Position numbers and translations under genes: made by a program. From assembly GCA_003569145.1 (NCBI GenBank), contig BGOH01000001.1, forward strand, positions 186,001 to 250,000: a DNA stretch of 64,000 nt, written 5' to 3'. The notes beneath the pieces were generated by a model that did not search any database, had not been told where the DNA came from, and saw only the letters and a list, made by a program, of their open reading frames with translations. The DNA comes from Clavibacter sp. Lineage in GTDB: Bacteria > Actinomycetota > Actinomycetes > Nanopelagicales > Nanopelagicaceae. This document shows, piece by piece, positions 12,972 through 52,700 of the stretch. Within the stretch, counting starts at the first letter, position 1; every line of letters begins with the position of its first letter.

Positions 12972-13112
12972 TCTCTCCTATTCTCTAACACCCGAACGCA
13001 TATTTATAGAGAATGGATCTTCGATCGAAGCCAACGGCATTCTTGTTTAAATCCGTAAGCCACCACCGAGGACCAAACCTCTAGCGATGCGCTGGGTGAT
13101 TATTTAATTGTT
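12972..13112 (-). ncRNA. Candidate Actino-pnp 5' leader RNA
   Basis: The pnp leader on the minus strand contains a GGTTTGGTCCTCGGTGGTGGC block, and then an exact 12-base palindrome CTTCGATCGAAG (13018-13029) about 50 bases from the pnp ATG. A conserved structured RNA called Actino-pnp is known upstream of pnp in Actinobacteria. The placement and the GGTCCTCGG-type text match my memory of that motif, but no covariance search was done. It may control PNPase levels after transcription. Confidence 0.5.
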
Positions 13113-42141: not shown

Positions 42142-43731
42142 TTACTCAGGTTTCTTTCCTGCTCTTATTAGCCCATAAGTTAGCGCATCTTCTAGCGCCA
42201 TGGCAGAGGCGGCAATAACATTTTCATGAACTCCAATTGTGCTCCATTCGCCATGACCATCGCTGCTCTCAACTAATACTCTTGTAATAGCCCCAGTTCC
42301 TAGGCGACCTTCCAAGATACGAACTTTGTAATCAGTTAGCTCAAGCTCAGCTAGTTCTGGATATAACTTCTCAAGACCATTTCGTAGCGCTCTATCGATA
42401 GCGTTAACTGGACCATTTCCACTACCAGAGGATGAAATTAACTCTCCCTTTGCCTTAATACTCACTTCAGCTCTTGAAGTTACTGAGCCATCTGCGCCTT
42501 GATCAACGCTAGTTTTCCAACTCTCAATAGTGAAAAATGAGGGTTTCTTTCCAGCAAGCTCTTCTCGTAATAACAGCTCAAAGCTGGCATCTGCTGCCTC
42601 AAATGTGTAACCACCAGATTCCAATTCTTTTACTCGCTCAACTAAGCGAGCGACAACCTCTTTTTCTTTACTTAAGTCAAAACCAAGTTGAGAGGATTTA
42701 ATTTCAATTGATGCCCTTCCTGCCATTTCAGAAACGAGCATTCTCATATCGTTACCAACGCTTTCAGGGTTTTCATGTTGATAGAGCGCTGGATCAACTT
42801 TAATTGCCGATGCATGAAGACCGGCTTTATGTGCAAAGGCAGAGATACCAACATATGGCTGTCTGGCACTTGGTGAGACATTGGTAACTTCAGCAACAGC
42901 GTGAGCGATTCTAAATGCTTCCTCTAGCGCTCCAGCCGGAAGTACTTCTTGCTTCTTCTTTAGCTGCAGGTTGGCAATGATTGAAATTAGATCTGCATTT
43001 CCAGTTCTCTCGCCATAGCCATTTAAAGTTCCTTGAACATGGCTAGCACCAGCTGCAACAGCAGCAAGTGAGTTAGCGATAGCGCATCCTGTGTCATTAT
43101 GGCAATGGATTCCAATGCGAGCTGCGCTATCTAAAATTACTTTTGCAACTACATCTGATAGTTCATCAGGCAGCATCCCGCCATTGGTATCGCAGAGAGC
43201 AATTACATCTGCTCCAGCCTCTGCTGCAACTCTTACTACCTCAAGTGCGTATGCTGGATTTGCTCGATAACCATCAAAGAAATGTTCTGCATCAAGAAAT
43301 ACTCTCTGGCCGCCTTGCCTTAAAAACTTAATTGAATCCTTAATCATCGCTAGGTTTTCTTGTAAATCTGTTTTTAAAGCTAGCTCAACGTGGCGATCAT
43401 GTGATTTTGCAACAAGAGTTACAACTGGCGCTCCAGATTCAGCCAGCGCTCTAAGAAGTACGTCATCTGCTGCTTTGGTATTGGCCCGCCTAGTAGCGCC
43501 AAATGCGACAAAAGTGGCATTCTTTAACTTCAACTCTTTAGCAGCTAATTTGAAGAATTCAGTATCTTTTGGATTGGCTCCAGGCCATCCCCCTTCAATA
43601 AAGCCCACTCCAAGATCATCAAGATGTCTAGCAATAGTTAATTTGTCATGGACTGAGAGATTAAGACCCTCTTGCTGCGCGCCATCTCTTAGTGTGGTGT
43701 CATAGATATGAAATGAATCAGAGATTGCCAC
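42142..43731 (-). CDS. cimA: (R)-citramalate synthase
   Basis: Condenses pyruvate and acetyl-CoA to citramalate, a threonine-independent entry to isoleucine. The 529-residue protein has a DRE-TIM barrel (DTTLRDGAQQEGLNLS; HCHNDTGCAIANSLAAVAAG) and a C-terminal LeuA-type allosteric domain (VRILEGRLGTGAITRVLVES). The DTTLRDGAQ opening and overall length fit CimA rather than 2-isopropylmalate synthase. It abuts ilvE (stop/start at 43731) and lies downstream of ilvBNC, serA and leuB. Substrate choice is inferred from the family. Confidence 0.88.
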   Translation of the reverse strand: MAISDSFHIYDTTLRDGAQQEGLNLSVHDKLTIARHLDDLGVGFIEGGWPGANPKDTEFFKLAAKELKLKNATFVAFGATRRANTKAADDVLLRALAESGAPVVTLVAKSHDRHVELALKTDLQENLAMIKDSIKFLRQGGQRVFLDAEHFFDGYRANPAYALEVVRVAAEAGADVIALCDTNGGMLPDELSDVVAKVILDSAARIGIHCHNDTGCAIANSLAAVAAGASHVQGTLNGYGERTGNADLISIIANLQLKKKQEVLPAGALEEAFRIAHAVAEVTNVSPSARQPYVGISAFAHKAGLHASAIKVDPALYQHENPESVGNDMRMLVSEMAGRASIEIKSSQLGFDLSKEKEVVARLVERVKELESGGYTFEAADASFELLLREELAGKKPSFFTIESWKTSVDQGADGSVTSRAEVSIKAKGELISSSGSGNGPVNAIDRALRNGLEKLYPELAELELTDYKVRILEGRLGTGAITRVLVESSDGHGEWSTIGVHENVIAASAMALEDALTYGLIRAGKKPE

Positions 43732-44816
43732 TAGATGACTCGCTTCATCCAGCCATGTTTATCTGGGATAGTGCCATGTTGAATGCCGAGTAAGTGATTA
43801 CGAATTTCCATAGTTATCGGCCCAGGATTGCCATCACCGGTTACCCAGGTTCCATACTTACTCTTTGCAGAACCAACAGGTGCAATAACTGCTGCTGTTC
43901 CGCAGGCAAAGATTTCAGAAATCTCTCCACTTGCAACGCCATCTCGCCATTGATCAATAGAGATCATTCCCTCTTCGACTTTATATCCCAAATCTTTAGC
44001 AACGCTTAAAATTGAATCTCTTGTGATGCCATGAAGCAGAGTTCCAGTTAATTTTGGAGTGAAGATAGTTGCATCTTTTCCTCTGCCCTTAACAAAGTAG
44101 AGATTCATTCCGCCCATCTCTTCAACCCAGAATCGCTCCTTGGCATCAAGCCAGACAACTTGATCACAACCTTCTTTTGCTGCCTCCTGCTGAGCAAGAA
44201 GAGAGGCGGCATAATTTCCACCACATTTTGCCTCGCCAGTTCCACCAAGTACTGCTCTGACATACTCTAAAGAGATCCAAACCGTTACAGCTTTAGCAGA
44301 ATTAAAGTAAGCAGCTGCAGGGGTGGCAATTACTGCAAATAAAGCTTTATTAGATGGCCTTACTCCAAGACCAACTTCAGTTGCAATCATAAATGGCCTC
44401 AAATAAAGAGACTCGCCAACTTTCTTTGGAACCCAGCCAGCATCTTGCTTTACTAAAGCTTCAACGGCGCTAACAAAGTCTTCAACTGGAAGCTCTGGAA
44501 GAGTGATTCGCGCTGCGCTCTTTGCAAAACGAAGAGCGTTCGCATCAGGGCGAAAGAGCGCGATAGATCCATCTGGTTGGTAGTAAGCCTTCATTCCTTC
44601 AAAGATTTCTTGCCCATAATGAAAAACCATTGCAGCAGGATCTAAATTGAGCGGTCCATAGGCAGAAATTGTTAGATCAGACCAACCACTCGACTGATTC
44701 CATTCAGCAACTGCCATGTGATCTGTGAAATATTTTCCAAATCCAGGCGCCTCTAAATACTGATCTCTCTGCGTTGGCGAGATTGGATTTGATGAAGGGA
44801 TGACTGTAATTTTCAT
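43731..44816 (-). CDS. ilvE: Branched-chain amino acid aminotransferase
   Basis: PLP enzyme that makes Val, Leu and Ile from their keto acids. The 361-residue group-II type protein has FEGMKAYYQPDGSIALFRPD and the cofactor segment EAKCGGNYAASLLAQ. It overlaps its neighbours leuB and cimA by one base each and shares the operon with the enzymes that make its substrates. Confidence 0.95.
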   Translation of the reverse strand: MKITVIPSSNPISPTQRDQYLEAPGFGKYFTDHMAVAEWNQSSGWSDLTISAYGPLNLDPAAMVFHYGQEIFEGMKAYYQPDGSIALFRPDANALRFAKSAARITLPELPVEDFVSAVEALVKQDAGWVPKKVGESLYLRPFMIATEVGLGVRPSNKALFAVIATPAAAYFNSAKAVTVWISLEYVRAVLGGTGEAKCGGNYAASLLAQQEAAKEGCDQVVWLDAKERFWVEEMGGMNLYFVKGRGKDATIFTPKLTGTLLHGITRDSILSVAKDLGYKVEEGMISIDQWRDGVASGEISEIFACGTAAVIAPVGSAKSKYGTWVTGDGNPGPITMEIRNHLLGIQHGTIPDKHGWMKRVI

Positions 44817-45852
44817 TAGCTAAGAGCCTTTGCTAGGTCATCGCCTATTTCACTAGTGCTTCGCTTCTTATCTGCTCTTGTAAGCAAGTCAGCCTCAACT
44901 GCTTTCTCAACATCTCTTGCAGCATCACTAAGCCCTAAGTGATTAAGTAGCATCGCAACAGACATAATTGTTGCAGTTGGATCAGCAATTCCTTTTCCTG
45001 CAATATCAGGGGCTGAGCCATGTACTGGTTCAAACATTGAAGGAAACTCACCACTTGGATTGATATTGCCAGAGGCAGCAAGGCCAATTCCGCCGCAGAT
45101 AGCAGCAGCGATATCAGTCAAAATATCTCCAAAGAGATTATCAGTTACCACGACATCAAAGCGCTCCGGATTTGTTACAAAGAACATCGAGGCTGCATCA
45201 ACATGGAGATAATCAGTACTTACTTGAGGAAACTCCTTTGCAACTTCTTCAAAGTTCTAGTCCAAAGGCTTCCCGCTCTTGTTAAAACATTATTCTTATG
45301 AACTAAAGTTAATTTCTTTCTAGGTCTTGCCATAGCTCTATTAAATGCATCTCTTATAACTCGCTCTGCGCCTCGTCTGGTATTGAGGCTCTCCTCTGTT
45401 GCAATTTCACTTGAAGTGCCAAAGCCAAGAACTCCGCCAGCTCCAACATAAGGTCCTTCGGTTCCCTCTCTAACTACAATGAAATCAATTGGCGCACTTG
45501 TCTTTAGCGGACCAACTACTCCCTGGATATAGGCGTGCCGGGCGCAGGTTGATGTAGTGATCAAAGGCAAAACGAAGTTTTAGAAGTAACCCGCGCTCAA
45601 GGACTCCACTTGGAACACTTGGATCACCTACTGCGCCAAGAAGGATTACATCAAAGCTTTTTAGTTCTTCCAGCGTTTTATCTGGCAGAACTTCACCGGT
45701 TTTATGCCAGAAGGCAGCCCCTAATTCAAATGCTTTCTTGCTATAGGTAAAGCCATGCTTCTTGCCCGCTGCATCAAGAATTTTCAAACCCTCATTAACA
45801 ACCTCAGGTCCGATTCCATCGCCTGCGATTACTGCAAGATTAAAGTTCTTAC

Positions 45853-45856
<4 letters not shown>
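44816..45856 (-). CDS. leuB: 3-isopropylmalate dehydrogenase (two apparent frameshifts)
   Basis: Oxidative decarboxylation step in leucine synthesis; the family can also act on methylmalate in the citramalate route. The start [20 protein letters not shown] is normal. The extra base in the CCC run 45521-45523 breaks the frame after ARLYPG; removing it restores [20 protein letters not shown] missing base at 45250-45253 breaks it again after SLWTRT; adding it restores [20 protein letters not shown]. The two indels compensate, so the end [18 protein letters not shown] is intact and the length is 346 residues. I infer sequencing errors. Confidence 0.9.
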
Positions 45857-48490
<2,634 letters not shown>

Positions 48491-48585
48491 TTAGTTTTGG
48501 TAGTCCTCGGTCTGGCTATGCGTCGATGAAGAAGCTAGTCCAGTTTCTTGCAAAGTTCTTTCAGCCAAAGTCGCATCGCCATTTT

Positions 48586-49049
48586 CTAGCGCATAAGACC
48601 TGATTGAACTAACTCTTTGATGCCAAAGCTTGATAGTTCACCTAGCAGCGCTGCAATCTCAGCGCTACTTCCTATCGCCTCAATGGTAAGGCTGGAGGAA
48701 GCCTGGCTAACAATTGAGGCTCGATATTTGCCTACAACTGCCTCAATCTTTGAGCGATTATCTCCAGTGCTATTTACTTTAACCATTAATAGCTCTCTTT
48801 GATGAGAGTTCTTATCTTCCATCTCTTGAATTCCGATCACGTTACTAATTTAAATAGCTGGGCGCTGACCTGATCTAATGCATGGCCCTCAAGATTTAAA
48901 ACAATAGTAATTCGCGAAATCTCAGGACTCTCTGTTGGTCCCACAGCGAGTGAATCAATGTTGTATCCCCGGCGAGAAAATAAGGATGCAACCCTGGCTA
49001 GAACACCAGGGCTATTTTCAACAAGAACAGAGAGTGTGTGTTGGGCCAT
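48586..49049 (-). CDS. ilvN: Acetolactate synthase small (regulatory) subunit IlvN (one apparent frameshift)
   Basis: Valine-sensing subunit of acetohydroxyacid synthase. The N-terminal ACT domain [20 protein letters not shown] runs to SAQLFKLV, where the frame breaks. One extra base at the TT of 48842-48843 gives [20 protein letters not shown] and continues to the stop at 48586. The restored length, 154 residues, is usual for Actinobacteria. It follows ilvB by two bases. Confidence 0.92.
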
Positions 49050-49051
49050 GG

Positions 49052-50791
49052 CTATAACTCCTGTGAATCCCAGTCAGGTGCCATTTCTTTGGCAATCAAA
49101 ATATCATCATTAGAAGTTCCAGCAGCCACCATTGGCCAGACCATCGCATCTCTATGAACGCTAAAGTCCACTACAACTGGCGCATCATTGATTGCATTTG
49201 CCTCTTTAATGATTTTATCGACATCACCTTTTGACTCACAGCGAAGACCAACACAGCCCATCGCTTCTGCAAGTTTTGCAAAATCAGGAATTCTCTTGGA
49301 GTGCAGATCAGTATTTGAGTAACGCTCTTTGTAAAAGAGAGTCTGCCACTGACGAACCATTCCAAGGCTCTCATTATTGATAACAGCAACTTTGATTGGA
49401 ATATTGTTTAGGGCGCAGGTTACTAATTCCTGATTTGTCATCTGGAAGCAACCATCACCATCAATTGCCCAAACTGGAGTATCAGGCGCGCCAACTTTTG
49501 CACCCATTGCTGCTGGAACTGCATAACCCATAGTTCCAAGGCCACCAGAATTTAGCCAGGTTCTTGGTTTTTCATACTTAACAAATTGTGATGCCCACAT
49601 CTGATGTTGCCCAACACCTGCAACATAGATTCCATCAGGGCCGGTAATTGCTCCGATTCGCTCAATTACATATTGTGGCGATAGCGATCCATCACTTGGT
49701 TCGTTATATCCAAGGGGATATTTCTGGCGTAGCGAATTCATCTGCTTCCACCACGAAGTGATATCAGCCTTATTCTTAGCAAACTCAGCTTTAACAGCGG
49801 GAATTAGCGCTCTAATAATTGGGCCAAGGTCGCCAATAATTGGCACATCGGCATAGCGATTCTTACCAATTTCTGCCGGGTCAATATCGGCGTGAATTAT
49901 CTTGGCATTTGGGGCAAATGTAGAGAGTTTTCCAGTTACTCGATCATCAAATCGAGCGCCTAAAGTAATAAGTAAATCTGCTTTCTGCAGGCCAGTAACA
50001 GCAGCAACTGTTCCATGCATTCCTGGCATGCCAAGATGCTGGCTATGGCTATCAGGAAAGGCTCCTCTTGCCATCAAGGTTGTTACAACTGGAGCTCCAA
50101 CTAGCTCTGCTAACACAAGAAGTTCTTTTGCAGCATTGGCCTTTATTACTCCGCCGCCGATATAGAAGATTGGTTTACTTGATTGAGCAATAAGTGATGC
50201 AGCATCTCGAATTGCCTCTGAGTTAGGTTCAATCTGCGGGTTATAACCTAGAAGGTTTAACTTCTTTGGATAGTTATAGCTAGTCATCTTCTGTAGCGCA
50301 TCTTTAGCGATATCAACTAGAACTGGTCCTGGCCTTCCAGATGATGCAATATAAAAAGCTTCAGCAATTGCCCGAGGAATTTGAGCAGGATCTGTTATCA
50401 AGTAATTATGTTTTGTTACCGGCATCGTGATTCCGCGGATATCAGCTTCTTGGAAAGCATCGGTTCCAATAGCAGCTGATGGAACTTGACCAGTGATAGC
50501 AACAATTGGAACTGAATCCATCTGCGCATCAGCAATTGGTGTAACTAAATTTGTTGCTCCTGGCCCTGAAGTTGCAATGCATACCCCAACGCGGCCGGTA
50601 ACTTGGGCATATCCAGTTGCAGCATGACCTGCTCCCTGTTCATGGCGAACTAAGATGTGGCGAATCTTTGAATCAAAGATTGGATCATAGGCAGGAAGAA
50701 TTGCGCCACCAGGAATACCAAACATGACATCAACGCCAGAATCTTCTAGCGCGTTAACGAGGGCTTGAGCCCCTGTTATCTCACTTGCCAT
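49052..50791 (-). CDS. ilvB: Acetolactate synthase large (catalytic) subunit
   Basis: ThDP-dependent enzyme for the first shared step of Val/Leu/Ile synthesis. The 579-residue protein has the catalytic Glu in [12 protein letters not shown] (about residue 51), the central FAD-type domain, and the ThDP-binding segment [15 protein letters not shown] good AAAGGAG lies 11-17 bases before the ATG. It is the first enzyme gene of the operon and is preceded by the leader peptide and attenuator described separately. Confidence 0.97.
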
Positions 50792-50840
50792 CTTGGTTCA
50801 CTCCTTTCTTCCAATTCTTTTTAGGCCCACTAATGCAAAA

Positions 50841-50860
50841 ACCCTCAGTTTCCTGAGGGT
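50841..50860 (-). terminator. Intrinsic terminator/attenuator in the ilvB leader
   Basis: ACCCTCAG and CTGAGGGT form a perfect 8-bp stem with a 4-base loop, followed on the minus strand by a run of five T (50837-50841). It sits between the leader peptide and ilvB, as expected for a transcription attenuator. Confidence 0.8.
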
Positions 50861-50889
50861 GCGCGTGAACTTTTATCTAGTTCACGCGC
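50861..50889 (-). promoter_or_regulatory. Second leader hairpin overlapping the ilv leader-peptide stop
   Basis: GCGCGTGAAC and GTTCACGCGC make a perfect 10-bp stem with a 9-base loop, directly before the terminator hairpin. Its 5' arm lies in the last codons and stop of the leader peptide, so a ribosome at the end of the peptide would mask it. That is the geometry of an attenuation switch. Confidence 0.6.
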
Positions 50890-50941
50890 AGCGAATCACC
50901 ACTGAAACAAGTGCGATTACAGAAGTTGATTTCGCTGACAT
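50882..50941 (-). CDS. ilv leader peptide (Val/Ile/Leu-rich, 19 residues)
   Basis: Starting at ATG 50941 the frame reads MSAKSTSVIALVSVVIRCA and stops at 50882. Seven of eleven residues from position 8 to 18 are Val, Ile or Leu. It lies 90 bases before ilvB and is followed by a stem-loop and an intrinsic terminator. Ribosome stalling at these codons when branched-chain aminoacyl-tRNAs run short would favour read-through into ilvBNC. This is the classic leader-peptide attenuation logic, also known for ilvBNC in Corynebacterium. The ATG lies seven bases after the -10 box, so the mRNA probably has no 5' untranslated region. Confidence 0.8.
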   Translation of the reverse strand: MSAKSTSVIALVSVVIRCA

Positions 50942-50948
50942 GTGGATA

Positions 50949-50977
50949 AGTATCCCCTGATAAAAAGTATGAGTCAA
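50949..50977 (-). promoter_or_regulatory. Promoter of the ilvBNC-serA-leuB-ilvE-cimA operon
   Basis: On the minus strand TTGACT and GATACT are separated by exactly 17 bases. The -10 ends seven bases before the leader-peptide ATG, which puts the transcript start at or next to that ATG. Confidence 0.7.
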
Positions 50978-51007
50978 CCCTTAAGACGGCCATCTCACAA
51001 TATGAAC

Positions 51008-51023: not shown

Positions 51024-52700
51024 TTAGTCGCAGACCGCGCCCTTTGATGCTGATCCCACAAGCTTTACATACTTACCCAATACCCCAGAGGTATACCTAC
51101 TTGGTAGCGGTTTAAAGCTCTCTCTTCTCTTTGCTAACTCACTTTCATCAACTAATAAATCTAGCGTTCTTGCATTGATATCAATCCGAATTCGATCGCC
51201 ATCTTTAACAAGTGCAATTGCTCCACCATCACTTGCCTCTGGTGCAACATGTCCCACGCATAGCCCGGTTGTGCCACCGGAGAATCTGCCATCGGTAATT
51301 AAGAGAACAGATTTTCCAAGACCCGCGCCTTTAATTGCTCCAGTAATCATTAACATCTCGCGCATTCCAGGACCACCCTTTGGCCCTTCATAGCGAATCA
51401 CTACAACATCACCTGCTGTAATAGTTCCATCTTCTAGCGCTTGCATCGCAGCTTGCTCTCTATCAAAGACTCTGGCAGGTCCTTCGAAGGAGTCAACTCC
51501 AACTCCAGCAACCTTTGTCACTGCGCCATCTTTAGCAAGTGAGCCACTTAAAATTGTGATTCCGCCACTTACACCCATCGGACTTTTTACCGCTCTTAAG
51601 ATTTCGCCATCAGGATCTGGTGGATTGATATCAGCTAAATTCTCAGCCATAGTTTTTCCAGTAACTGTTAAACAATCTCCATGAAGTAGGCCGGCATCAA
51701 GTAGGGCCTTTAATATCACCGGAATTCCTCCGACTTTATCGACATCGCTCATAACAAATCTGCCAAATGGTTTTAAGTCGCCAAGTAGTGGGACCTTTGA
51801 GCCAATGCGATGGAAATCATTTAAGGTTAAATCAACCTTTGCTTCATGGGCAATTGCTAGTAAGTGAAGAACAGCATTAGTTGATCCGCCGAGGGCCATA
51901 AGGGCAGTAATGGCATTTTCAAATGCTTGCTTACTTAAAATATCTCTTGTCGTTATTCCTGCTCTTATGAGCTCAACAACTGCTGCTCCTGACTTAACAG
52001 CATAGCTATCACGCCTGCGATCAACTGCTGGCGGAGCAGCAGAGCCAGGAAGTGATAGACCGATGGCTTCACCAATAGTTGCCATTGTGTTTGCGGTATA
52101 CATCCCGCCGCAGGCACCTTCACCTGGACAGATAGCGCGCTCAATTTTATCGACCTGCTCTTGAGAAATTAAGCCTCTGGCGCATGCTCCAACTGCTTCG
52201 AAGGCATCAATGATGGTGACATCTTTTCCATCGACTTGTCCTGGAAGAGTAGAGCCGGCATAAACAAAGACGCTAGCAACATCAAGTCGCGCTGCTGCCA
52301 TCATCATTCCTGGAAGAGACTTGTCACAACCAGCAAATGTGACCATGCCATCAAATCTCTCTGCCTGCATAACTGTTTCAACAGAGTCTGCAATAACTTC
52401 TCTTGAAACTAATGAGAAGTGCATTCCCTCATGGCCCATTGATATGCCATCAGAGACTGAGATGGTGCCAAACTGCATTGGAAATCCGCCTGCATCAAGG
52501 ACTCCTTGCTTTGATGCTTTTGCTAAACGATCTAACGAGAGATTACATGGCGTGATTTCATTCCAAGATGATGCAATTCCAATTTGTGGCTTAACCCAAT
52601 CTTCATCTTTCATTCCTACCGCTCTAAGCATTCCGCGAGCAGGAGCGCGCTCAAGACCATCTGTTACAAGTCCAGAACGCGGCTTCATTGGATTTGTCAT
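51024..52700 (-). CDS. ilvD: Dihydroxy-acid dehydratase
   Basis: Iron-sulfur dehydratase giving the keto-acid precursors of Val/Leu and Ile. The 558-residue protein has the three conserved cluster cysteines at Cys52 (TPCNLSLD), Cys125 (AGCDKSLPG) and Cys197 ([14 protein letters not shown]). It follows gatB by 13 bases and lies just upstream of the ilvB promoter, so it is transcribed separately from ilvBNC. Confidence 0.96.

Follow-up and report, generated by a model that had tools for sequence, protein, structure and literature searches.

The interval between ilvD, which ends at 51024, and ilvB, whose ATG lies at 50791, raised the question of whether the genes downstream are governed by a ribosome-mediated transcription attenuator and, if so, how a ribosome on a leaderless leader peptide would control the terminator in front of ilvB. 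The locus belongs to a 1.08-Mb genome bin of the family Nanopelagicaceae, the acI-type freshwater actinobacteria, and the window, that is, the whole stretch of DNA that was analyzed, comprised 64,000 nucleotides. Actinobacteria of the acI type have small genomes and are among the most abundant bacteria of fresh water. A preliminary description of the locus had proposed a promoter directing transcription to the ATG of a small open reading frame (ORF) rich in branched-chain residues, followed by two stems and then by ilvB. All of these parts were found at the claimed places, and every part of the leader and the operon lay on the minus strand (Table 1).

Table 1. Positions within the window of the leader elements, the operon genes, and ilvD
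Feature	Coordinates	Strand	Basis or comment
cimA, citramalate synthase	42142..43731	-	TIGR00977
ilvE, branched-chain aminotransferase	43731..44816	-	NCBIfam NF009897
leuB, 3-isopropylmalate dehydrogenase	44816..45856	-	Homology; broken by single-base indels near 45523 and 45254
serA, phosphoglycerate dehydrogenase	45853..47472	-	TIGR01327
ilvC, ketol-acid reductoisomerase	47438..48472	-	NCBIfam NF004017
ilvN, acetolactate synthase small subunit	48490..49049 (lower end approximate)	-	Homology; 1-nt deletions at 48843 and 48592
ilvB, acetolactate synthase large subunit	49052..50791	-	NCBIfam NF005860
P2, intrinsic terminator, ACCCTCAG-GAAA-CTGAGGGT plus T-tract	50837..50860	-	8-bp stem 50860-50841, T-tract to 50837
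P1 hairpin, GCGCGTGAACT/AGTTCACGCGC	50861..50889	-	Perfect 11-bp stem, 7-nt loop; proposed antiterminator
Leaderless leader-peptide ORF (ilvL), MSAKSTSVIALVSVVIRCA plus TGA	50882..50941	-	19 codons; ATG 7 nt after the -10 hexamer
-10 hexamer GATACT	50949..50954	-	Sequence; spacer here 17 nt
-35 hexamer TTGACT	50972..50977	-	Sequence; TTGAC conserved across relatives
Operator-like inverted repeat TGAGATGGCCGTCTTA	50982..50997	-	2 mismatches to TGAGAT-N4-ATCTCA; 4 bp upstream of the -35 hexamer
ilvD	51024-52700	-	NCBIfam; just upstream of the leader, same direction

The promoter match taken alone was not above chance, since the region contained 7 promoter-like sites against 7.3 expected from shuffled sequences. 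The leader region folded better than its shuffles, however (z = -4.4, with 0 of 200 shuffles as good), and this fold, together with the conservation among relatives, which settled the matter, led us to judge the element genuine despite the chance-level promoter. The choice of the leader ORF required a -35 as well as a -10 element; a 38-codon ORF in the window, which had been picked on its -10 score alone, was dropped once the -35 element was required. When a pattern was used to look for other leaderless starts in the source genome, its matches were no more numerous than those of the control.

Regions upstream of ilvB were gathered from 80 genome-contig loci and from about 90 further loci of the family. 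Family statistics were calculated on 73 distinct Nanopelagicaceae leaders, and 40 leaders from other Actinobacteria formed the comparison set. Relatives that lacked the small ORF or the stems had been named in advance as evidence that would speak against the element; the check was run and the element survived it, with 113 of the 116 usable Nanopelagicaceae leaders keeping both, and with the promoter, a short ORF rich in branched-chain codons, and the terminator together in the same number. Two of the three exceptions look like broken assemblies, L084 being interrupted by an assembly gap and L141 by an apparent assembly deletion, and the third, L026, has GTGACA as its -35 element and keeps the rest. 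Taken by itself, the terminator P2 was present in nearly all relatives. Outside the family, the same geometry recurred in Streptomyces, Nocardioides, Kribbella, and others, whose leaders encode peptides such as MRTRILVLGKRVG, and a search of phage records returned no match.

The arrangement of promoter and ORF was nearly invariant. The spacer between the -35 and -10 hexamers was 17 to 18 nt in 71 of the 73 distinct family leaders, and in 72 of the 73 the start codon lay 6 to 7 nt past the -10 box, which would fit a leaderless geometry; here the distance from the -10 box to the ATG at 50941 is 7 nt, and transcription is predicted to begin at the ATG or one base before it. The regulatory codons of ilvL are GTA ATC, CTT GTT, and GTG GTG ATT, and its TGA, at 50884-50882, falls within the 5' arm of P1. 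Across the 73 distinct leaders, codons for Val, Ile, and Leu made up 42% of those in frame, compared with 14% and 20% in the other two frames. The leader ORF was mostly 9 to 30 codons long across the family, the run of branched-chain codons ended 1 to 7 nt before P1 in 63 of the 73 leaders, and the stop codon varied in position, lying inside P1 at one extreme and 4 nt ahead of it at the other.

Conservation at the level of codons, combined with a variable ORF length, argues against a ligand-binding riboswitch or some other structured RNA standing in place of a translated leader. Precedents for such an RNA exist, since some ilvB genes are preceded by ppGpp riboswitches and the ilvB-II RNA was first suspected of being one; ilvB-II, however, proved unresponsive to ppGpp (PMC10272879). 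In addition, the leader had no relevant match in Rfam, ilvB-OMG and the ppGpp riboswitch included, at gathering or relaxed thresholds, and the P1 loop showed no conservation of sequence, so that a riboswitch appears extremely improbable. The sole Rfam match in the window was an Actino-pnp RNA (RF01688) at 13013-13077 on the minus strand, with 62 bits.

The stem overlapping the stop codon was perfect, as had been described, although it has 11 bp instead of the 10 first counted; P1 has a fold energy of -18.0 kcal/mol and is separated from P2 by 0 nt. The covariation of stems that had been proposed as a check was seen for P1, in which 6 of the 10 pairs counted had both partners changed in some relative; the covariation score of the whole structure was 0.219, compared with 0.138 for shuffles, none of 500 of which reached it. 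Furthermore, when the 85 nt preceding P2 were searched for their strongest stem with the spacing left free, it ended between -4 and +3 nt from P2 in 88% of the family leaders and in 95% of the leaders from other Actinobacteria, whereas the same abutment occurred in 14% and 10% of the respective shuffles. A gap of -3 to +3 nt was counted in 64 of the 73 family leaders and in 38 of the 40 others. Because the positions of the codon run relative to P1 and of P1 relative to P2 are fixed while the stop codon varies, it is these two distances that are kept constant. Retention of the ORF and both stems in relatives, the start codon 6 to 7 nt from the -10 box, the covariation of P1, and a conserved operon all supported the attenuation reading, and we assign a probability of about 0.86 to the locus being a ribosome-mediated transcription attenuator whose leader peptide is leaderless and which governs a seven-gene operon for branched-chain amino acids and serine.

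In such an attenuator, transcription would begin at or beside the ATG, and a ribosome would load straight onto the 5' end of the RNA. With charged Val, Ile, and Leu tRNAs, the ribosome would reach the stop codon and cover the 5' arm of P1; P1 would then be blocked, the terminator P2 would form, and transcription would halt ahead of ilvB. With these tRNAs uncharged, the ribosome would stall in the codon run that immediately precedes P1, leaving P1 free to fold; abutting P2, this hairpin would stop the P2 stem from closing at its base, next to the U-tract, and would let RNA polymerase read on. About half of the relatives would also allow P1 to borrow outer bases of P2, since in 37 of 72 family leaders P1 can take one or more P2 bases into its own pairing; in the other 35 it can take none, which suggests that base sharing between the two hairpins may not always be needed.

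Ribosome positions that permit P1, and those that do not, were modeled by constrained folding in which the nucleotides beneath the ribosome were held unpaired. The modeled probability of P1 averaged 0.82 with the ribosome waiting on the run's first codon and fell to 0.0 with the ribosome at the stop codon. P2, in contrast, was formed in every ribosome state at equilibrium, with its outer pairs at 0.91 to 0.97, and equilibrium folding with ribosome masks was accordingly rejected as an explanation of the switch, because P1 responds and P2 does not. A classical antiterminator helix, in which the leader or the P1 loop pairs with either arm of P2, gave family mean z values of 0.29 and 0.02 against shuffles, and an H1-like anti-antiterminator pairing the ORF with the 5' arm of P1 gave a mean z of 0.3, none of these values being above chance. 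With P2 stable in all states and no classical helix detected, switching must rest on kinetics, on steric effects, or on shared bases, and in the simplest interpretation P1 is itself the antiterminator and works at the point where it joins P2. Confidence in the attenuator as such is higher than in this role of P1, whether exercised by adjacency or by overlap.

P1 sits directly ahead of the terminator, a position that would also suit a mere pause hairpin synchronizing ribosome and polymerase, with a short or nonconserved antiterminator doing the switching in the classical three-hairpin style; the model published for the Corynebacterium glutamicum leader has three hairpins, and one of them pauses the polymerase (PMC11857589). 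We consider this arrangement unlikely, given that neither a helix between the leader and a P2 arm nor one between the ORF and the 5' arm of P1 beat shuffled sequences, that only 25 nt lie between the ATG and P1 in some family leaders, and that the position of the ribosome governed P1 in the model.

A second regulatory input was suggested by the inverted repeat. The motif TGAGAT-N4-ATCTCA with at most 2 mismatches was present in 63 of the 73 distinct family leaders, with a position 4 to 5 bp upstream of the -35 element in as many, while only 1 of 365 shuffles reached 2 mismatches. Five of 12 complete relatives carried exactly one perfect copy per genome, each time at ilvB. Copies with a single mismatch were 2 to 8 times commoner than the reversed-pattern control in five complete relatives, an excess implying that the presumed regulator may have other targets. 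The repeat is a candidate operator and probably the binding site of some regulator protein, so that a protein and the attenuator may both control the operon.

If regulation were left to such a protein, P2 could be a constitutive intrinsic terminator and the ORF vestigial or unused. The strong conservation of a repeat so close to the -35 element is consistent with this scheme, as are the folding of P2 in all modeled states and an account, as cited in PMC1262725, that altering the regulatory ilvB codons of Streptomyces coelicolor reportedly had no effect. It would nevertheless be hard pressed to explain the frame-specific enrichment of branched-chain codons, the fixed distance from the codon run to P1, and the covariation of P1; in addition, changing LVVI to AAAA in the leader of Mycobacterium tuberculosis ilvB1NC abolished induction (PMC13236596). 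We therefore regard a purely constitutive terminator as quite improbable. For the attenuator itself, we tentatively advance, as a possible though doubtful mode of action, antitermination by abutment, in which P1 would sterically block closure of the P2 base at the polymerase exit channel with neither shared bases nor a classical helix, combined with a second, protein input at TGAGAT-N4-ATCTCA.

The extent of the operon was borne out by homology, which placed seven genes from ilvB to cimA as originally proposed, although in the assembly two 1-nt indels interrupt ilvN and another two interrupt leuB. These four single-base indels lie within about 3.6 kb, both genes are open in close relatives, and the breaks are probably assembly or read errors rather than marks of pseudogenes. 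All 10 relatives examined showed the gene order gatB-ilvD-(leader)-ilvB-ilvN-ilvC-serA-leuB-ilvE-cimA, save that gatB, identified by NCBIfam upstream of the operon, was not seen in the stretch examined of one of them. Since the genes downstream of ilvC overlap or touch, ilvB to cimA are likely to be carried on one transcript. Through attenuation of this transcript, the entry of serine and citramalate would be coupled to the charging of branched-chain tRNAs. Read-through from ilvD would place the leader ORF in the interior of an RNA, without a ribosome binding site, a context in which attenuation may work differently.

A regulatory device has thus been retained throughout a family of acI-type actinobacteria, and its 110-odd divergent leaders form a natural data set on how the actinobacterial ilvB switch operates when it has no separate antiterminator helix. 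The novelty at first attached to the leaderless leader and to serA in the operon was less than claimed. Leaderless ilvB leaders were already known, and candidate ilvB leader peptides and terminators had been reported for Corynebacterium, Mycobacterium, and Streptomyces, including an ilvBserA1 operon (Seliverstov 2005, PMC1262725). The attenuator type is therefore an established one in actinobacteria, found here in another lineage and over a longer operon; within a limited coverage of the literature, no paper describing an ilvB attenuator in acI-type bacteria was found.

The leader most resembles three known systems. With C. glutamicum ilvBNC, or ilvB-II (Narunsky 2023, PMC10272879), it shares a short ORF rich in branched-chain codons about one nt from the transcript start, which in the acI leader is a predicted start, adjacent hairpins, and a place upstream of ilvB, as well as the lack of a ribosome binding site, a feature of the C. 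glutamicum leader peptide for which PMC10272879 and PMC11857589 cite Morbach 2000. The terminator and antiterminator bases of C. glutamicum are adjacent and overlap at a trinucleotide, and both hairpins have been tested by mutants (Ryabchenko 2025, PMC11857589), whereas in about half of the acI leaders the two hairpins have no base in common. The acI peptide also differs, the operon is larger, and an upstream anti-antiterminator hairpin is not detectable.

Streptomyces ilvL-ilvBHC offers a leaderless peptide (MRTRILVLGKRVG), a P1 that abuts the terminator, the order ilvB-ilvN-ilvC, and often serA nearby, and a leaderless IlvL has been described in Streptomyces lividans (PMC8079986). Its peptide core is ILVL, in contrast to VVI or VVVI in acI, its stems are G+C-rich, and the TGAGAT-N4-ATCTCA repeat is not clearly present. 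The M. tuberculosis ilvB1NC operon has only three genes, a different peptide, and a leader described as 166 nt. It nevertheless shares with the acI locus an upstream ORF with LVVI regulatory codons, translated in M. tuberculosis, a terminator with an antiterminator, the latter a proposed one in acI, and the masking of the antiterminator by a ribosome at the stop codon (PMC13236596), the behavior that was modeled here for P1.
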